DNA of 64,000 nucleotides from Aquibium oceanicum (lineage in GTDB: Bacteria > Pseudomonadota > Alphaproteobacteria > Rhizobiales > Rhizobiaceae), in contig NZ_CP018171.1 in assembly GCF_001889605.1 (NCBI RefSeq), forward strand, positions 3,556,501 to 3,620,500, read 5' to 3'. Shown here in pieces: positions 32,751 through 39,501 of this stretch. Both the position numbers and the translations under genes were made by a program. How positions within the stretch are numbered: the stretch's first letter is position 1; each line of letters begins with the position of its first letter. The notes under the pieces are model-generated. The model had not been told where the DNA came from, ran no database searches, and saw only the letters and a program-made list of their open reading frames with translations.

Positions 32751-32752
32751 TC

Positions 32753-32792
32753 ACAAAACCTCGTGGACCGCGGGAGGCTTACGAGATTTTGT
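32753..32792. other. Imperfect inverted repeat before nrdR
   Basis: ACAAAACCTCGT (32753-32764) and ACGAGATTTTGT (32781-32792) are complementary at 11 of 12 positions, two bases upstream of the nrdR start codon. On the minus strand the 5' arm lacks a trailing T-run, so it may be a leader hairpin, an operator, or a weak end signal for the gene before it. Confidence 0.35.
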
Positions 32793-32901
32793 CGGGACAG
32801 GGAAGCGCGCGGGCGACGTCATGTCCCGCGCATACGGCATCAACCCCGGCCGCGTCGCGATCGGGAGGAATTGGCGGATTTTTCGCGGCCGCGGCGCCGC
32901 T

Positions 32902-33927
32902 CTACGATGTATCGGGCAGCGCCTCGTGGGCGAAATGGTTCAGGTCGCGCAGGATCTCGTGGATCTCGTGTCTGGGCCGGCGGCTTGCCGCGCAAAACTG
33001 GCCGGGCGGCCGGCCGACGCGCAGCGGCGAGAGGCGACGCCACGCGCCTTGCGCCCGGGCGCGGGCGCGCAGCGCCTGCAGGCGGACGAAGCGGCGGGCC
33101 TGGCGCGGCAGGTCGTCGAGTGCTTCGGCCACCGCCTTGAGCCGCAGCACCAGACGCGTCGCGTCGAGCGGATCGTCGGGCGTCGGCGGCGGCGGCAGGC
33201 GATGCGGCACAGCGTCGCCGAAGGAGAGAATGCGGGGGGCGGCATGCGGCGGCACGGTGCGCGGGCGCGCAGCGCGGGGATTGCGCAGCCGGTCGACGAG
33301 GGGCAGAGCGATAAAGGTGCGCGGGCGGCGCACGGAAGGGACGGCGCGCCGGGGCGCGGGAACGGCGGACGGCGGAAGCACCACGGCAATGCCGAGGCTG
33401 CGCAGGACGGCGACGGCGGCATTGTCCTTCCGCCCGCCGGTGTGCCGTGCCGGCCGCGCGGGCCCGGGCGGCGTCTCGGCCTCGGGGGGCGTCTCGGGCA
33501 GGGTCTTGGCCGCCACGATGACCAGCCGCCGGGCGGCCGATTCGGCCGGGCGCAGCAGGCGCAGCACGGCGCGGTGGAGCCGGCGGGGGAGTGTTGCGGC
33601 AATCGGCGGTCGGCAGTCGGCAGTCGTTGCGGAGCCCTCCCCTGACCGCCCGGGAGCCGGGGACAGTTTACTTTTTTCCGCCTGCGGATCTTCCCGGAGC
33701 GCCGCGCTGTCCGGACGGAAAAAAGTAAACTGTCCCCCGAGGTCCCCCGCCGGGTTCCCGCTGCCTGCGGCAGCGTCCCGGCCTTCTCCGCCTGTTGCCG
33801 TGCCACCGGCACGGCAAATTTGCGCCTCCGGCGCAAACCGACAGTCGAAGCCAGCCATGGCGACGAGCGCGGCCAGCACGCGCCGCAGCGCCGCCCCGTT
33901 CCCCTCGATCACCACCTGCCAGTCCAT
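32902..33927 (-). CDS. Hypothetical protein carrying an in-frame palindromic repeat
   Basis: About 341 residues, rich in Arg, Ala and Pro. The N terminus (MDWQVVIEGNGAALRRVLAA) and the C terminus (HEIHEILRDLNHFAHEALPD) look like conserved protein, and GGAAGG precedes the ATG at 33927. The middle is low-complexity and includes a 79-base palindromic element (33659-33737) read through as QFTFFRPD...EKSKLSPAP. I do not recognise a function; proteins of this kind seem confined to Hyphomicrobiales. The frame is open for 52 more codons upstream, but that part is proline-rich noise. Confidence 0.5.
   Translation of the reverse strand: MDWQVVIEGNGAALRRVLAALVAMAGFDCRFAPEAQICRAGGTATGGEGRDAAAGSGNPAGDLGGQFTFFRPDSAALREDPQAEKSKLSPAPGRSGEGSATTADCRPPIAATLPRRLHRAVLRLLRPAESAARRLVIVAAKTLPETPPEAETPPGPARPARHTGGRKDNAAVAVLRSLGIAVVLPPSAVPAPRRAVPSVRRPRTFIALPLVDRLRNPRAARPRTVPPHAAPRILSFGDAVPHRLPPPPTPDDPLDATRLVLRLKAVAEALDDLPRQARRFVRLQALRARARAQGAWRRLSPLRVGRPPGQFCAASRRPRHEIHEILRDLNHFAHEALPDTS
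33659..33737. repeat. REP-like palindromic element inside a coding gene
   Basis: Two perfect 22-bp inverted arms, GGGGACAGTTTACTTTTTTC(CG) at 33659-33680 and its complement at 33716-33737, surround a 35-base GC-rich loop. The arms are AT-rich blocks in otherwise >70% GC sequence. The GGGACAGTTTAC core is like repeats spread in many bacterial genomes, some mobilised by REP-associated transposases. It keeps the reading frame of the host gene. Confidence 0.75.
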
Positions 33928-34209
33928 CGCCGCCTTCCGTTGGTTTGGGCGGTGGGAGTATGGGGCGGGGTTTTGGGGGTGTGGATGGAAAAGCGGTGGT
34001 CGGGAGTGGGAAGTCGGCAGTCGGGCGAGCGAAATCAGGGGGTGGGGGGGGGGGATGTTTTCGGGAGGAGGAAGTTTGTCCACGCCTGAGGTGGCGGCAG
34101 GAATGGTGTTCGGAGGGCAGAACAGCGCCCCATATCGGCCGGCTAAGGCTGACCCTCATCCGCCTGAGAGCGGACCATGAACCATCAAGGTTTGGTATGG
34201 TCCGAGTGG
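33928..34209. other. G-rich intergenic stretch with a hairpin at the island edge
   Basis: No supported gene. The plus strand is strongly G-rich, with a homopolymer run near 34042-34055. From about 34090 the composition changes towards the AT-richer island. An inverted repeat (GGACCAT, 34172-34178, with ATGGTCC, 34197-34203, and a second short pairing inside) lies seven bases after the end of the ATPase gene. Confidence 0.4.
34172..34203 (-). terminator. Hairpin after the three-gene island, possible terminator
   Basis: The stem GGACCAT/ATGGTCC is extended by ACCA/TGGT after a small bulge. It lies directly downstream of the last island gene on the minus strand. No clear T-run follows, so either it is a weak terminator or it marks the island junction. 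Confidence 0.35.
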
Positions 34210-35418
34210 TTATCCGGCCGCGTCACGCTTCTTTTCAACGATCAAGTGAAGCGCTTGAAGTAGTTGTCCTTGATTTACACGCCTGAGATGAGTGGGTGCG
34301 ACGCTTCGGTCTGTGGTCGCGGCAGTGCGATAGGCATCTTCGAAATCTTCGTCAGATAGAATGGCAGGGAACTTTCCTACCTTCGAACCTGCGCGCTGCC
34401 GCTCGTAAGAGACATAAGTTTCGGCGATACCTTTAACTTCCGACGCGTCAGATATGGCGATCAAATCTGCGCGCGACCCCTCTTCGAAGCCCAACCGCTG
34501 AAACAACGGATAGTTGTAGTCGCGAAGATTCGCTGCTCCTCGTGGAGTTGACGCCGACAACATCAAAAGAGAGTAGCCCTCATCATTACGAATAGCTTCA
34601 TCGAAGAGGTAGCGAAGATCTTGTAGATATCCTTGTATCTTTGCCGCGCTGTATCCACTACCAAAAAGCGTTTCAACTTCATCAAGGCACAGCATTACTC
34701 CAAAAACTATGCCTTTGCTGCGTGCAAACGCAAGCAGCTCTGTCATATTGCGTGTCATCATCGCTGCGCTAGCGAGCCGAGCAAAGACACCTAGGTGACG
34801 CTTTTCTGTATTACTCAGCGCCGCACCTCCAAGCCATTTCTTGGCTAGATCTCTTAGAGGTTCGAACAACATGCGCCCGTCACGATCTGGCGGCATGAAT
34901 CCAGGCCGGCTTGCTCTAAAAAGAAGCTGAAGTACGTTCTTTAGCTCGCCCTGCTTCAATCCATCGAACTCTGCTGCATCTTCGCAACTTCGTATGATTG
35001 CGGTGAGCAGATCATATTCACCGGACAGTTTGGCGGCCTCATCAGCTTCGCGAAGCACCTCCCTTACGAGGTGAGAGGCTGAATTTGATCCAGCCAGGAT
35101 CTCAACGACCGCAAAAGGACGCCCGGAGGTTCGCCGGAACTCCCTCATCAAATACTGACAATGCCGCAAGAAGTGGGTCTTGCCTCCCCCCGTGCTGCCT
35201 TGGACACCCATAGCGCGGCGTTGAGGCTCTTCAGCCAGCATCTCTCGCACGAGGCCGACAAACCGATCCCGTGCGTCGACCTGATTGTATAGCACCTCCT
35301 CAATGATCGTTCGGGCCGCCGGAAACGGATTACGCTTGAAACCGAACCGACCGTAGAAGGGATCATTGTGATCCTTCTGATCAAGCGTCTCGCCGAGAAG
35401 CTCCGCGAGAGACGGCAT
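34210..35418 (-). CDS. AAA-type ATPase of an uncharacterised three-gene island
   Basis: 402 residues. A P-loop (VQGSTGGGKTHFLRH, residues ~72-86) and a Walker B motif (VMLCLDEVETLF, Asp246-Glu247) make it a working ATPase; SLLMLSASTPRG (sensor 1-like) and YPLFQRLGF (arginine-finger-like) follow. The N-terminal DHNDPFYGRFGFKRNPFPAA resembles openings of ORC/ExeA-like AAA proteins. It recalls BREX-type ATP-binding proteins in size but I cannot assign it to one. The ATG at 35418 shares a base with the stop of the PIN gene; a GTG at 35421 is also possible. Base composition is far more AT-rich than the flanks. Confidence 0.75.
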   Translation of the reverse strand: MPSLAELLGETLDQKDHNDPFYGRFGFKRNPFPAARTIIEEVLYNQVDARDRFVGLVREMLAEEPQRRAMGVQGSTGGGKTHFLRHCQYLMREFRRTSGRPFAVVEILAGSNSASHLVREVLREADEAAKLSGEYDLLTAIIRSCEDAAEFDGLKQGELKNVLQLLFRASRPGFMPPDRDGRMLFEPLRDLAKKWLGGAALSNTEKRHLGVFARLASAAMMTRNMTELLAFARSKGIVFGVMLCLDEVETLFGSGYSAAKIQGYLQDLRYLFDEAIRNDEGYSLLMLSASTPRGAANLRDYNYPLFQRLGFEEGSRADLIAISDASEVKGIAETYVSYERQRAGSKVGKFPAILSDEDFEDAYRTAATTDRSVAPTHLRRVNQGQLLQALHLIVEKKRDAAG

Positions 35419-37475
35419 CACCGCACCCTTTCAATGGTGAAGACGGGTCGCCCACCGATTTCAAATCTATCCATTGGTACTGGCACTTCCTCAAGTTCGA
35501 GCAGCGACCCGGAGATAACAGCGTCAACGCCGGTCGGCTTCCCGCCGACAGCGTATCCGAAAGCGAATTTCTCAGATAGCACCCTAGCATGCTCTTGAAG
35601 CGAACGGGATACAGCCCACGGTGAAATAAGAACTCCCCGGCAAATAATCGGTAGAAATTCAGATACTTGCGCAATGTTGTCGCGCGCTGCACTCTCATAT
35701 GCAGTCTCGAAGGCTTGCAGGAAGCCCGGCGCATCAGGTCGCCGCGAACCGTCTCGCCAAACGGCCCCATCAGACCAGCACTGCCCGAGCAGCACATGAT
35801 AGCGGACAAGGCGGATGCTAGCCTCCTGCGCCACTTCAGCGCCGAGGGCTGCGGTGAGGATGCCCCTCACATGCTCCCTCGTCAGCTCACCGTTCTCCTG
35901 AAGATGGCCTAGGATCACTCGATAAGGTTCAAAATTCTGGAACTGCTTACTAACCCGATCCAAGTCCGCTCTTTGCAGGCAACCTTCTACGTCATCCAAC
36001 TCTGCTCGGGAAACGATCGTTTTTCCGTCGAAATCAACGAGTTTGGCCCGACGAATCACCTCCAGGCTCCTGCGAACATTTCCCTCATTGGGCCGGCTTA
36101 CAGCGGGCAACTTCTCCATTAGTTCTGCAAACGTTAGTTTTCCTGAAGCGTAAAGGGCGCCCGCTATCCGCAGGGCGAGAGGCAATGAGGATTGAGGGAT
36201 TGCAGCGTTGCTGAATACCCGACTAAAGGCGTCGGTCCCCGGTTCTTCTTCGGGCGAAGTCGCACCATCGGGTCGTTCCACGGCCTCCACCGGCATTGAT
36301 ATCACCGGATTCGCGTCCTTCGCCTTTGCTCCCTTCCTTTTGGCGGTCTGCGCTGGCTGCGGAGGCGCTGACCCGGCCTTCTTCGCCGGGGTGGCGGCAT
36401 CATCTAGATTGCGAACGTCTAAACACTCTGCCACCCAGTCTTGCGGCTGTTTACCCGGCCAATAGCAGCTCAAGCTGAGTGACACTTTTCTTGAACTTTG
36501 CATCCTGACGGTTCCGAAAGCGTGGGTCAGATCCCAGAGCAAGCCCCTTATCGAGGTACCCATAAATGTGCCGGCCCAGGCGTCATAACGAAAGCTGGGG
36601 ATTTCCTTCTCTTGCAGCTTAGGGGTGGGCAGACAGATGTTCGGTATTCCCTCCGCGCCCAAGACGCGGGATAACAGAACATCCGAAGTCACAACCAACT
36701 GCTTGGCTCGTGTTCGTGTCGAGCGCAGAACTGTATGCACCCCCTCAATCAAGAGGCGGTCCTCAAGGACATCACCTTCATCTTGGTCTAACCCCCCCTT
36801 GCCAGCAGCACGCAAGTACCGAAGGAGCGACGGATCGAGTTCCAGAACCTGATAGCGATGCTGATTGCGTTCAAGAAAACTTAGGCCCGCATTCACCAAC
36901 GCCCGTGAGCGAAGCGCCTGCGCAAGATTTCCATCCTTGCCGCTTCTAGCGAGCGACTTCAGAGTTGCCTCGCGGGCCTGCATTTGCGTTAACGACATCA
37001 CGAAAGGCATTAGCCAAACAGTCGTCTCCTTAAGGACGTTCAACAGCCAATGGAGGGTACCGTTATAGAGGCTGTTTGTATCGGGTATAAGAACAATGCC
37101 CTTTGCACTCCGAAGATCAAGCAACTGCTGGGCCGTTCTACCGGACACAAGTGGCGATAAAATGCCCAATCTCGTAGCGCAAAGGGAAATAGTATCAATT
37201 ACGACATTAGCGTTTCTGTCCTTCCGGTCTTTTACCTCTTTACTATCCTGTTCTCCCGATAAAAATCTTTTATCCAAGTTCAACTTCAGCCGAAATGAGC
37301 ATTCTCTCTCGTCTTCGGATGGTGGTGGTTCGTTGATCCCAATCGAGACGAGACTGCACCACTCGCCGTTCTTGATGTGGGTGCTGTCAGTATAAGAAAC
37401 CGACAATGTTCCTTCGCGGACGCCTAAATAGCGCTGGTCCTTCGCAAAATCAGCTTGACTGAAGAGTGTGGTCAT
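35418..37475 (-). CDS. PIN-domain protein with winged helix, three-gene island
   Basis: 685 residues. Residues ~125-280 have the layout of a PIN nuclease: Asp132 in IVLIPDTNSLYNG, acidic Glu238-Asp239 in DVLEDRLLIEGVHTVLRS, and Asp265 in QLVVTSDVLLSRVLGAEGI, the last matching the usual TxD strand. A Lys/Ala/Pro linker (residues ~385-415) leads to a helical region with a winged-helix-like stretch (KLTFAELMEKLPAVSRPNEG, RRSLEVIRRAKLVDFDGK). PIN domains cleave RNA, less often DNA. ATG 37475 overlaps the stop of the small gene before it (ATGA); its stop overlaps the ATPase start. The whole-protein family is unknown to me. Confidence 0.65.
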   Translation of the reverse strand: MTTLFSQADFAKDQRYLGVREGTLSVSYTDSTHIKNGEWCSLVSIGINEPPPSEDERECSFRLKLNLDKRFLSGEQDSKEVKDRKDRNANVVIDTISLCATRLGILSPLVSGRTAQQLLDLRSAKGIVLIPDTNSLYNGTLHWLLNVLKETTVWLMPFVMSLTQMQAREATLKSLARSGKDGNLAQALRSRALVNAGLSFLERNQHRYQVLELDPSLLRYLRAAGKGGLDQDEGDVLEDRLLIEGVHTVLRSTRTRAKQLVVTSDVLLSRVLGAEGIPNICLPTPKLQEKEIPSFRYDAWAGTFMGTSIRGLLWDLTHAFGTVRMQSSRKVSLSLSCYWPGKQPQDWVAECLDVRNLDDAATPAKKAGSAPPQPAQTAKRKGAKAKDANPVISMPVEAVERPDGATSPEEEPGTDAFSRVFSNAAIPQSSLPLALRIAGALYASGKLTFAELMEKLPAVSRPNEGNVRRSLEVIRRAKLVDFDGKTIVSRAELDDVEGCLQRADLDRVSKQFQNFEPYRVILGHLQENGELTREHVRGILTAALGAEVAQEASIRLVRYHVLLGQCWSDGAVWRDGSRRPDAPGFLQAFETAYESAARDNIAQVSEFLPIICRGVLISPWAVSRSLQEHARVLSEKFAFGYAVGGKPTGVDAVISGSLLELEEVPVPMDRFEIGGRPVFTIERVR

Positions 37476-37852
37476 TCGATCCGGACCCAAACGTGCTTCT
37501 TATCTAGCGATTTCAATAGATCCAGTGCATTCAGACAGACGCTTGCTACCGCTTCCGATAGTGGGATGTCTGTCGTGAACATCGGCGAAGCCGCAACAGC
37601 TTGTTCTGTCAAATTCAACGATGTCCAGCCTTCAGCCTCTTTGGTCCAGTCCAAAGAAGCCAGCAGCGCTGCAAAATCTGCCAGCTTGTACCAAACGCCG
37701 GGCTGGGCCTCCGGGATGAATGACAAAATCGCCGCTGTCGTAACCCCTGAAGCCTCTTCATCATCGGAAGCACCAACGCCCCCGTACCAAAGCTCCTCCC
37801 AGTCGCCCGCTATATCTGGCGATTCCTGGGAGATAATTGCCCTTAGTGCCAA
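37472..37852 (-). CDS. Small acidic protein, first gene of the island
   Basis: 126 residues, acidic and without cysteine clusters, signal peptide or membrane helix. Visible stretches: SQESPDIAGDWEELWYGGVG, FIPEAQPGVWYKLADFAALL and LNALDLLKSLDKKHVWVRIE. The start is TTG 37852 with GGGGAGAG about seven bases upstream. Its stop overlaps the PIN gene start. I do not recognise it; a small acidic protein ahead of a nuclease and an ATPase could be an adaptor, an inhibitor or a sensor. Confidence 0.55.
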   Translation of the reverse strand: MALRAIISQESPDIAGDWEELWYGGVGASDDEEASGVTTAAILSFIPEAQPGVWYKLADFAALLASLDWTKEAEGWTSLNLTEQAVAASPMFTTDIPLSEAVASVCLNALDLLKSLDKKHVWVRIE

Positions 37853-38187
37853 TTCTTCTCTCCCCAGCCATCCCCACTATACTGTCGCATGGCTATCTTC
37901 TCATAACACCCACTCTGTCGATCATCGAGTCGCTACGATATCTCGCAAATAATGGCACGTAGCAGCCGCACTGTCGCCCCGCCAAGACAGGAGCGCGCAC
38001 CCGTCAGCCATTTCATGAGCTCTCGCAAAAACTGGCCAGTCCCGCTCACGGACTCACACCGGTCATTAGACGCTTCAGCGCACCGCCTTCCCCCGGGTGC
38101 AACCCGCCGCCTGCGGCAAGCCCCACCCGTTCGCAGCCTGCCGTTAAGCCCCCGGCATAACGGCTTCGCCTGCGGCGAACCGGCCTC
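37853..38187. other. Upstream edge of the island
   Basis: No gene is supported here. The promoter for the three-gene unit should lie in the AT-rich part (37880-37960: CTATACTGTCGCATGGC, GATCATCGAGTCGCTACGAT). From about 38060 the composition returns to the high-GC background. I found no tRNA and no clear direct repeat matching the other edge. Confidence 0.35.
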
Positions 38188-39501
38188 TCACCCCATGAAC
38201 GGGTAAAGCGGGAACCGGTCCGTCAGCGCGATCACCTTCTTCTTCACCGCTTCCTCGACCGCGGCGTTGCCCTCATCGGAGTTGGCGGCCTTGAGGCCGT
38301 CCAGCACCTCGGCGATGAGCTTGCCGATCTCGCGGAATTCGGCCTGGCCGAAGCCGCGCGTGGTGCCGGCGGGGGTGCCGAGGCGCACGCCGGAGGTGAC
38401 GAAGGGCTTTTCGGGGTCGAAGGGGATGCCGTTCTTGTTGCAGGTGATGTTGGCGCGGCCGAGGGCTGCCTCGGCGCGCTTGCCCGTGGCGTTCTTGGGG
38501 CGCAGGTCGACCAGCATGGAATGGTTGTCGGTGCCGCCCGAGACGATTTCGAGGCCGGTCTCCTGCAGGCTCGCCGCCAGCGCGCGGGAATTGGCCACGA
38601 CCTCGTGCGCGTAGGCCTTGAAGTCGGGGCGCAGCGCCTCGCCGAAGGCCACCGCCTTGGCGGCGATGACGTGCATGAGCGGGCCGCCCTGCAGGCCCGG
38701 GAAGACGGCCGAATTGACCTTCTTGGCGATGTCCTCGTCGTTGGTGAGGATCATGCCGCCGCGGGGCCCGCGCAGCGACTTGTGCGTGGTCGTGGTGACC
38801 ACGTGGGCATGCGGCAGCGGCGAGGGATGCGCGCCGCCGGCGACGAGGCCGGCGATGTGGGCCATGTCGACCATGAGATAGGCGCCGACCGCGTCGGCGA
38901 TCTGGCGGAAGCGCTGCCAGTCCCAGATGCGCGAATAGGCCGTGCCGCCGGCGATGATCAGCTTGGGCTTGTGCTCGTTGGCGAGGCGCTCGACCTCGTC
39001 CATGTCGAGGCGATGGTCCTCGCGGCGCACGCCGTAGGAGATCACGTTGAACCATTTGCCGGACATGTTGACCGGCGAACCGTGGGTCAGGTGGCCGCCG
39101 GAGTTCAAGTCGAGGCCCATGAAGGTGTCGCCCGGCTGCAGCAGCGCCAGGAAGACGGCCTGGTTCATCTGTGAGCCGGAATTGGGCTGGACGTTGGCGA
39201 AGCCGCAGTCGAACAGCTTTTTCGCGCGTTCGATGGCGAGGCTCTCGGCGATGTCGACGAACTGGCAGCCGCCATAATAGCGCTTGCCGGGATAGCCCTC
39301 GGCATACTTGTTGGTCATGATCGACCCTTGCGCCTCGAGCACGGCGCGGGAGACGATGTTTTCCGACGCGATCAGCTCGATCTCGTGGCGCTGGCGGCCG
39401 AGTTCCTTGCCGATGGCGCCGAAAATCTCGGGATCGACCTGTTCGAGCGGCAGGTTGAAAGGGTTTTCCTGGATCGTCTTGGCGGCGTTCGCGGTGGCCA
39501 T
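38188..39501 (-). CDS. glyA: Serine hydroxymethyltransferase
   Basis: 437 residues. The PLP enzyme interconverts serine and glycine with tetrahydrofolate. Motifs: [36 protein letters not shown], the PLP-lysine region [16 protein letters not shown], and [17 protein letters not shown]. The ATG at 39501 follows AAGGA with good spacing; the frame is open 24 codons further upstream. In related genomes nrdR follows directly; here the island 32902-38187 intervenes. Confidence 0.95.

Follow-up and report, generated by a model that had tools for sequence, protein, structure and literature searches.

Three genes, A, B, and C, overlap head to tail on the minus strand at 34210–37852 of the window (the whole analysed stretch of 64,000 nucleotides from Aquibium oceanicum). 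With a probability of roughly one half, they form a rare, mobile module for defence, whose PIN-type nuclease would be gated by a BrxD-like ATPase together with a small acidic partner; it is the genomic context that suggests the defence role. The pieces are of known kinds, and their combination appears to be new. PADLOC-DB 2023 contains no system matching the trio, which bears out the first-pass annotation in recognising no named system here, and no description of it turned up in searches of an open-licence PMC library.

Gene content and insertion site

Gene A (37472–37852, minus strand) starts with TTG and encodes a small acidic protein of 126 aa with a pI of 4.16. Gene B (35418–37475, minus strand) encodes 685 aa with a PIN-like signature, a winged-helix-like part recognised by eye, and a conserved C-terminal region. 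Gene C (34210–35418, minus strand) encodes a predicted AAA+ ATPase of 402 aa, and its start is most likely the ATG at 35418, the position at which its homologues also start in the alignment. A and B overlap through ATGA at 37475–37472, and B and C through TGATG at 35420–35416. The initial description of three minus-strand genes with overlapping stop and start codons therefore holds, as does that of an AT-rich island in a high-GC region: GC content is 0.537, 0.543, and 0.532 for A, B, and C (0.53–0.54), against 0.658 for the window outside 32751–38188. Across all trio copies at the four loci described below it ranges from 0.505 to 0.543. A hairpin just 3' of C (34172–34203, minus strand) has a modest z of −1.94 compared with shuffled sequences, 8 of 200 of which fold equally well; it has no T-run and is possibly the 3' end of the operon transcript. 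A conserved operator was sought upstream of the trio and none was found, and counts of promoter-like and terminator-like elements are at shuffle level.

The trio lies inside a 5.4-kb insertion at the glyA-nrdR junction. Spanning 32751–38187, the segment from nrdR to glyA is missing from congeners G489 and G619; it comprises the trio together with 1.4 kb of GC-rich DNA. The glyA and nrdR matches end 317 bp apart in G489 and 132 bp apart in G619, i.e., the junction is near-empty (132–317 bp) in 2 of the 3 comparable congeners. The third, G561, carries a different 6.7 kb at the same place (locus L026, 10164–16836), and the junction is therefore variable. According to a family search, none of these three genomes has a copy of gene C, while in G1236, the genus's fifth genome, with a completeness of 69%, no match occurs at this place. 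The insertion had been called foreign-looking from the start, and the analysis supports reading the three genes as a foreign, mobile unit. No convincing flanking or terminal repeats that would mark exact ends of the insertion were found around the window trio, and the window contains no tRNA.

Judged by eye, the G561 genes at this junction are metabolic-looking (dehydrogenase-like, a regulator, and peptide-binding-protein-like). Between nrdR and the trio, at 32751–34160 of the window, lies the GC-rich stretch of 1.4 kb (about 0.70–0.75), which G489 and G619 lack at this junction; the ORF examined in it has no Pfam family match. The stretch also holds, beside the trio, a perfect 22-bp inverted repeat with a 35-nt spacer at 33659–33737, and no exact copies of the repeat arm exist elsewhere in the genome.

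Recurrence, mobility, and selection

The trio is intact at 4 of 4 loci, with the order A-B-C kept and with stop and start codons overlapping or abutting. The other three copies all belong to Rhizobiaceae, namely an Ensifer canadensis plasmid, Neorhizobium huautlense, and Sinorhizobium terangae. Co-occurrence in other genomes was a check proposed by the first-pass annotation, and the three further loci with the same gene order provide it; such recurrence is more than chance. A tblastn search of 72,556 plasmids reports a single record, E. canadensis pT173c, which carries all three genes. The S. terangae and N. huautlense copies come from a scan of genome contigs that used two short peptide patterns only and is therefore no census. 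Searches of overlapping sets of 385, 247, 297, 398, 57, and 372 genomes recovered the window's own copy and, as the only further full one, that of N. huautlense (G524). The trio is absent from viral contigs in 3 scans, each with a few short peptide patterns, and B and C each have 0 matches in 50,697 phage records. Weak extra matches in G056 (E 8.8e-4, 92 residues) and G917 (E 0.0097) were discarded as chance, and those in G490 (E 2.1e-4) and G863 (E 5.8e-4) turned out to be SngB loci. The four hosts are related soil bacteria of one family; the trio is rare in what was searched, and this lowers its weight. The same rarity may explain its absence from catalogues.

In the flanks that were fetched, all four loci have only three ORFs in common, namely A, B, and C, which makes these a real module of three genes. 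This comparison was all-against-all (ORFs of at least 60 aa, E 1e-8, antisense shadow matches set aside) and covered 12 kb of the window and 32, 19, and 21 kb of the other loci.

Pairwise identity among the copies is 40–74% for A, 51–82% for B, and 67–88% for C. The highest values belong to E. canadensis and N. huautlense (74%, 82%, and 88%, respectively), compared with 54, 64, and 74% when S. terangae is taken instead. All three genes thus pair E. canadensis with N. huautlense and not with S. terangae, whereas NCBI taxonomy groups Ensifer with Sinorhizobium and assigns Neorhizobium to a different group. Since A, B, and C share a grouping that contradicts taxonomy, they move together, and the comparison points to horizontal transfer of the trio as a unit. 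E. canadensis and N. huautlense are also the least saturated pair, the others being saturated or nearly so at synonymous sites. For this pair dS equals 1.5–2.4, itself a high value, dN equals 0.08–0.17, and dN/dS is about 0.03–0.11. The low dN relative to dS indicates purifying selection on A, B, and C.

A is the fastest-evolving member, as would be expected of a sensor, an inhibitor, or a specificity factor. It is acidic in all four copies (pI 4.16–4.38) and matches no family in Pfam, PADLOC, NCBIfam, or PHROGs, in agreement with its original labelling as a protein of no recognised kind. The TTG start in the window is replaced by ATG in E. canadensis and N. huautlense, and in S. terangae an ATG lies two codons further upstream.

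Mobile-element genes (integrase and/or mobilization) adjoin the trio in 3 of the 3 other loci, and known defence operons do so in 2 of them (Hma/DUF499-like and type I restriction). The suggested location in defence islands is therefore seen at two of the other loci. At the window copy, no integrase, mobilization, or known-defence neighbours like theirs are seen, and an inspection by eye of the ORF list of 30–42 kb reveals no defence gene beside the trio. In E. canadensis, SNF2, DUF1156-annotated methylase, and DUF499 genes lie directly downstream of the trio on the opposite strand and form an operon with two unmatched small genes (L003 18459–28715, pT173c). According to PADLOC, the helicase has BrxHI as its best match (1.3e-101), followed by HmaA (7.4e-94), the methylase matches HmaB (1.1e-34), and the DUF499 protein matches HmaC weakly (1.3e-4). 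Such sets of helicase, methylase, and DUF499 protein are termed DUF499-centred BREX-related systems in PMC12839542. The trio adjoins this related operon but is separate from it and on the opposite strand, and its DUF499 ATPase can be aligned with C only around the P-loop, over 26 columns and with a probability of 18%. Farther away on the upstream side of the E. canadensis trio there is an AbiEi-like gene.

In S. terangae, HsdM, HsdS, and HsdR are located upstream of the trio and a tyrosine integrase of DUF6538 type downstream, beside tRNA-Thr (the whole array occupies L011 238–13924). The N. huautlense trio has a tyrosine integrase downstream and NikA-like and relaxase genes upstream. Related relaxase/MobC mobilization genes just upstream of the trio are common to E. 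canadensis and N. huautlense. The E. canadensis relaxase, which has a homologue in the N. huautlense element, appears split into two frames (L003 12666–13709) and is apparently decayed.

This mobile setting would also suit a TniABQ/Tn7-like transposition module, with B as a DDE transposase, C as a TnsC/TniB-like ATPase, and A as a target selector, and a transposase, an AAA protein, and a small protein are indeed the TniABQ/Tn7-like layout. However, B has no transposase match in Pfam, NCBIfam, PHROGs, or PADLOC, C resembles BrxC/BrxD, and the window trio has no convincing terminal repeats around it; with no transposase match of any kind, this hardly credible reading was rejected. A cargo operon of metabolic or regulatory function, unrelated to conflict, is very improbable as well. 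The metabolic-looking genes of G561 at the same glyA-nrdR junction would fit it, whereas the sporadic distribution and mobility of the trio, the defence neighbours in 2 of the 3 other loci, and the BREX-type kinship of the ATPase argue against it.

The ATPase and the PIN-like protein

The first-pass annotation had taken C for an intact P-loop ATPase, and the motifs confirm this: Walker A is GSTGGGKT (residues 74–81; 35176–35199, minus strand) and Walker B is LCLDEVETLF (residues 243–252; 34663–34692, minus strand). Both are conserved in 4 of 4 copies, with one Walker A position being Ser or Gly. Profile comparisons further place C as a remote relative of the BrxC/BrxD/SngB AAA+ ATPases. With hits up to E 5 admitted, PF10923 (BrxC_BrxD) is listed for C in every one of the 4 members, the best E being 1.5e-5. 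For the window protein, E is 5.1e-4 and the score of 19.5 bits is below the curated cut-off of 22.2 bits, so it is filed as a remote relative and not as a member. Other Pfam families listed are AAA_22 in 4 members (best E 1.1e-4) and ORC-CDC6-like in 3 (best E 0.014). In PADLOC, a single member of the 4 has a BrxD hit (E 1.1e-4), and mad8 is reported for 2 of 4 (best E 0.02). Regarding SngB as identified by PADLOC, the nearest relative of C met in genome searches, hhalign gives 77.5% probability and an E of 1.9e-5 over 115 columns that take in Walker B as well as the W..G....EKR.LGV and STP regions. An AlphaFold model of C made with a three-row alignment has a mean pLDDT of 41.9, too low to be of use. 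TerB and SngB pairs, assigned to Sng by PADLOC, were also observed in two genomes of the same order (L006 and L007).

C and BREX BrxD/BrxC (PF10923) are alike in the P-loop, Walker B (CLDE), W..G....EKR.LGV, and STP regions. The BREX core of PglX, PglZ, and BrxC, however, is not among the genes common to the four loci within the fetched flanks, and PADLOC reports no BREX match to A or B. Similarly, SngA-SngB, which we take to be Shango (TerB, a DUF2791 ATPase, and a helicase), differs from the trio, which has neither TerB nor helicase and instead has the PIN-like B and the acidic A.

Of the columns in the most conserved core of B, residues 126–290 (36606–37100, minus strand; D132, E169, E238/D239, and D265), 67% are invariant, compared with 34% elsewhere in the protein; this core holds GIVL(I/L)PDTN, EDRLLIEG, and VVTSD. 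The acids on which the earlier designation of B as a PIN nuclease relied, D132, E238, D239, and D265, are all there and do not vary among the 4 homologues; PIN profiles, in contrast, score B at background. It has no meaningful family score in Pfam, PADLOC, NCBIfam, or PHROGs, and no PIN family is among its Pfam hits at E up to 5. In an HMM scan of 658 stop-to-stop ORFs, B is at background with the PIN and PIN_4 profiles, its best ranks being 143 of 564 scored ORFs and 71 of 324, respectively. Comparison by hhalign with alignments of 29 PIN sequences (30 cut out, stop-containing ones left out), 27 PIN_4, and 2 PIN_12 is not significant, shuffles doing equally well in 30 of 150 cases for PIN, 19 of 150 for PIN_4, and 149 of 150 for PIN_12. 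Among the controls, PIN and PIN_4 find each other with 69.7% probability, and both reach only 1–2% with PIN_12, which means that this test has little power where PINs are distant. The best of these non-significant alignments puts D132, D239, and D265 on PIN acids; the second canonical acid is Gln in B (Q166), with E169 three residues on.

A strict pattern, DTN...D...TSD, which was composed after inspecting B, occurs in 4 of 4 B proteins and 0 of the other 654 of the 658 ORFs. It is also found in 25 of 27 PIN_4 sequences, a set from which 3 of the 30 fetched had been dropped by a filter that demanded DTN close to the start as well as an open frame. Only 1 of 29 VapC-type PINs has it, and it misses one clear VapC among the 658 ORFs. 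The pattern appears in 0 of 20,000 shuffles of B and 3 of 131,600 shuffled ORFs, and a looser one in 14 and 9, respectively. PIN_4 nucleases, presumably PhoH-type, are thus nearest to B in pattern, VapC less so, and have the signature hh.DTN ... D..h ... hhTSD in common with it. In comparison with PIN nucleases, B is a larger multidomain protein undetected by PIN profiles, with a core of about 165 residues that contains long insertions. We therefore treat B as PIN-like by motif and spacing, with the fold unproven. A CARF-PIN hit reported by PADLOC (E 0.022, residues 308–356) falls beyond the PIN-like core and was left out of account.

As for the winged-helix part that had been claimed for B, a pattern is visible by eye in the C-terminal half, at residues 424–510 (35946–36206, minus strand), but eS25 winged-helix profile hits have E of 0.2–1, which is chance level like others in the list; they cover profile positions 465–531 and overlap the winged-helix-like part partially. 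The AlphaFold model of B, made with a 3-sequence alignment, has a mean pLDDT of 34.6 and is unusable.

Possible mechanisms and significance

The upstream gene of the trio is small, encodes an acidic protein, and overlaps a larger one that is nuclease-like, and integrase and/or mobilization genes lie next to 3 of the 3 other copies. In these respects the trio also resembles an addiction (toxin-antitoxin-like) module, in which A would be the antitoxin, B a PIN toxin, and C a regulating ATPase, serving upkeep of the element first and not phage defence. We consider this unlikely. In comparison with VapBC, B has 685 aa and no PIN profile match and A has no match to any family; VapC-type toxins are far smaller than B, and an ATPase as third member is, to our knowledge, not usual in toxin-antitoxin modules. 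According to PMC13092281, moreover, the PIN-plus-partner pair of DS-5 is defensive, requires its second protein, and is likely not a toxin-antitoxin pair. That source also provides a precedent for PIN effectors in phage defence, in DS-3 with one protein and DS-5 with two, and its passages on them that were consulted mention no ATPase for either; B is likened to these PIN nucleases by description.

The kind of nucleic acid that B would cut separates the preferred defence module from one that restricts DNA, in which C would load B onto DNA, B would cut foreign or damaged DNA through a PIN/FEN-like site, and A would set specificity. Bacterial PIN effectors are mostly RNases, and no methyltransferase or other self-marking gene is present in the trio or common to the four loci; both points speak against DNA restriction, which appears doubtful. 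In its favour are the distant kinship of C to BrxD/SngB and the winged-helix-like part of B seen by eye. PMC12839542 describes BrxD as an ORC-Cdc6 AAA+ ATPase of uncharacterized role that may help to load a helicase. The suggested loading of the BrxHI helicase by BrxD would be a model for C loading B.

In the preferred reading, the trio is a self-contained conflict module of Rhizobiaceae that moves horizontally and has a gated PIN-type nuclease. C would oligomerise as a BrxD/SngB-like, ORC/Cdc6-type AAA+ ATPase and act as sensor or switch. B would be the effector: its PIN-type nuclease, by precedent most likely an RNase, would be joined to a winged-helix-like part that binds nucleic acid. The small acidic partner A would keep B inactive or bring it to C. 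Upon infection, C would release or load B, RNA would be cut, and the cell or the phage would be stopped. Of this, the analysis shows where the module ends, that it is mobile and under selection, that C has its distant ATPase kin, and which motifs B contains; nuclease activity, its substrate, the role of A, and defence are inferred. A more specific form, to which we give slightly less than even odds, has the trio provide immunity by itself: an AAA+ ATPase of the BREX/Shango type would be coupled straight to the PIN-like nuclease effector and to a fast-evolving acidic sensor or inhibitor, and methyltransferase, helicase, and PglZ would all be dispensed with. It would represent an undescribed minimal use of a BrxD-type ATPase, so far found only in rhizobial mobile elements.

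If so, a simple nuclease effector can be driven by a BrxD/SngB-type ATPase unaided, and what such an ATPase senses would be far easier to learn from a system of three genes. A defence module absent from PADLOC-DB 2023 would also be added to the mobile elements of agriculturally useful rhizobia.
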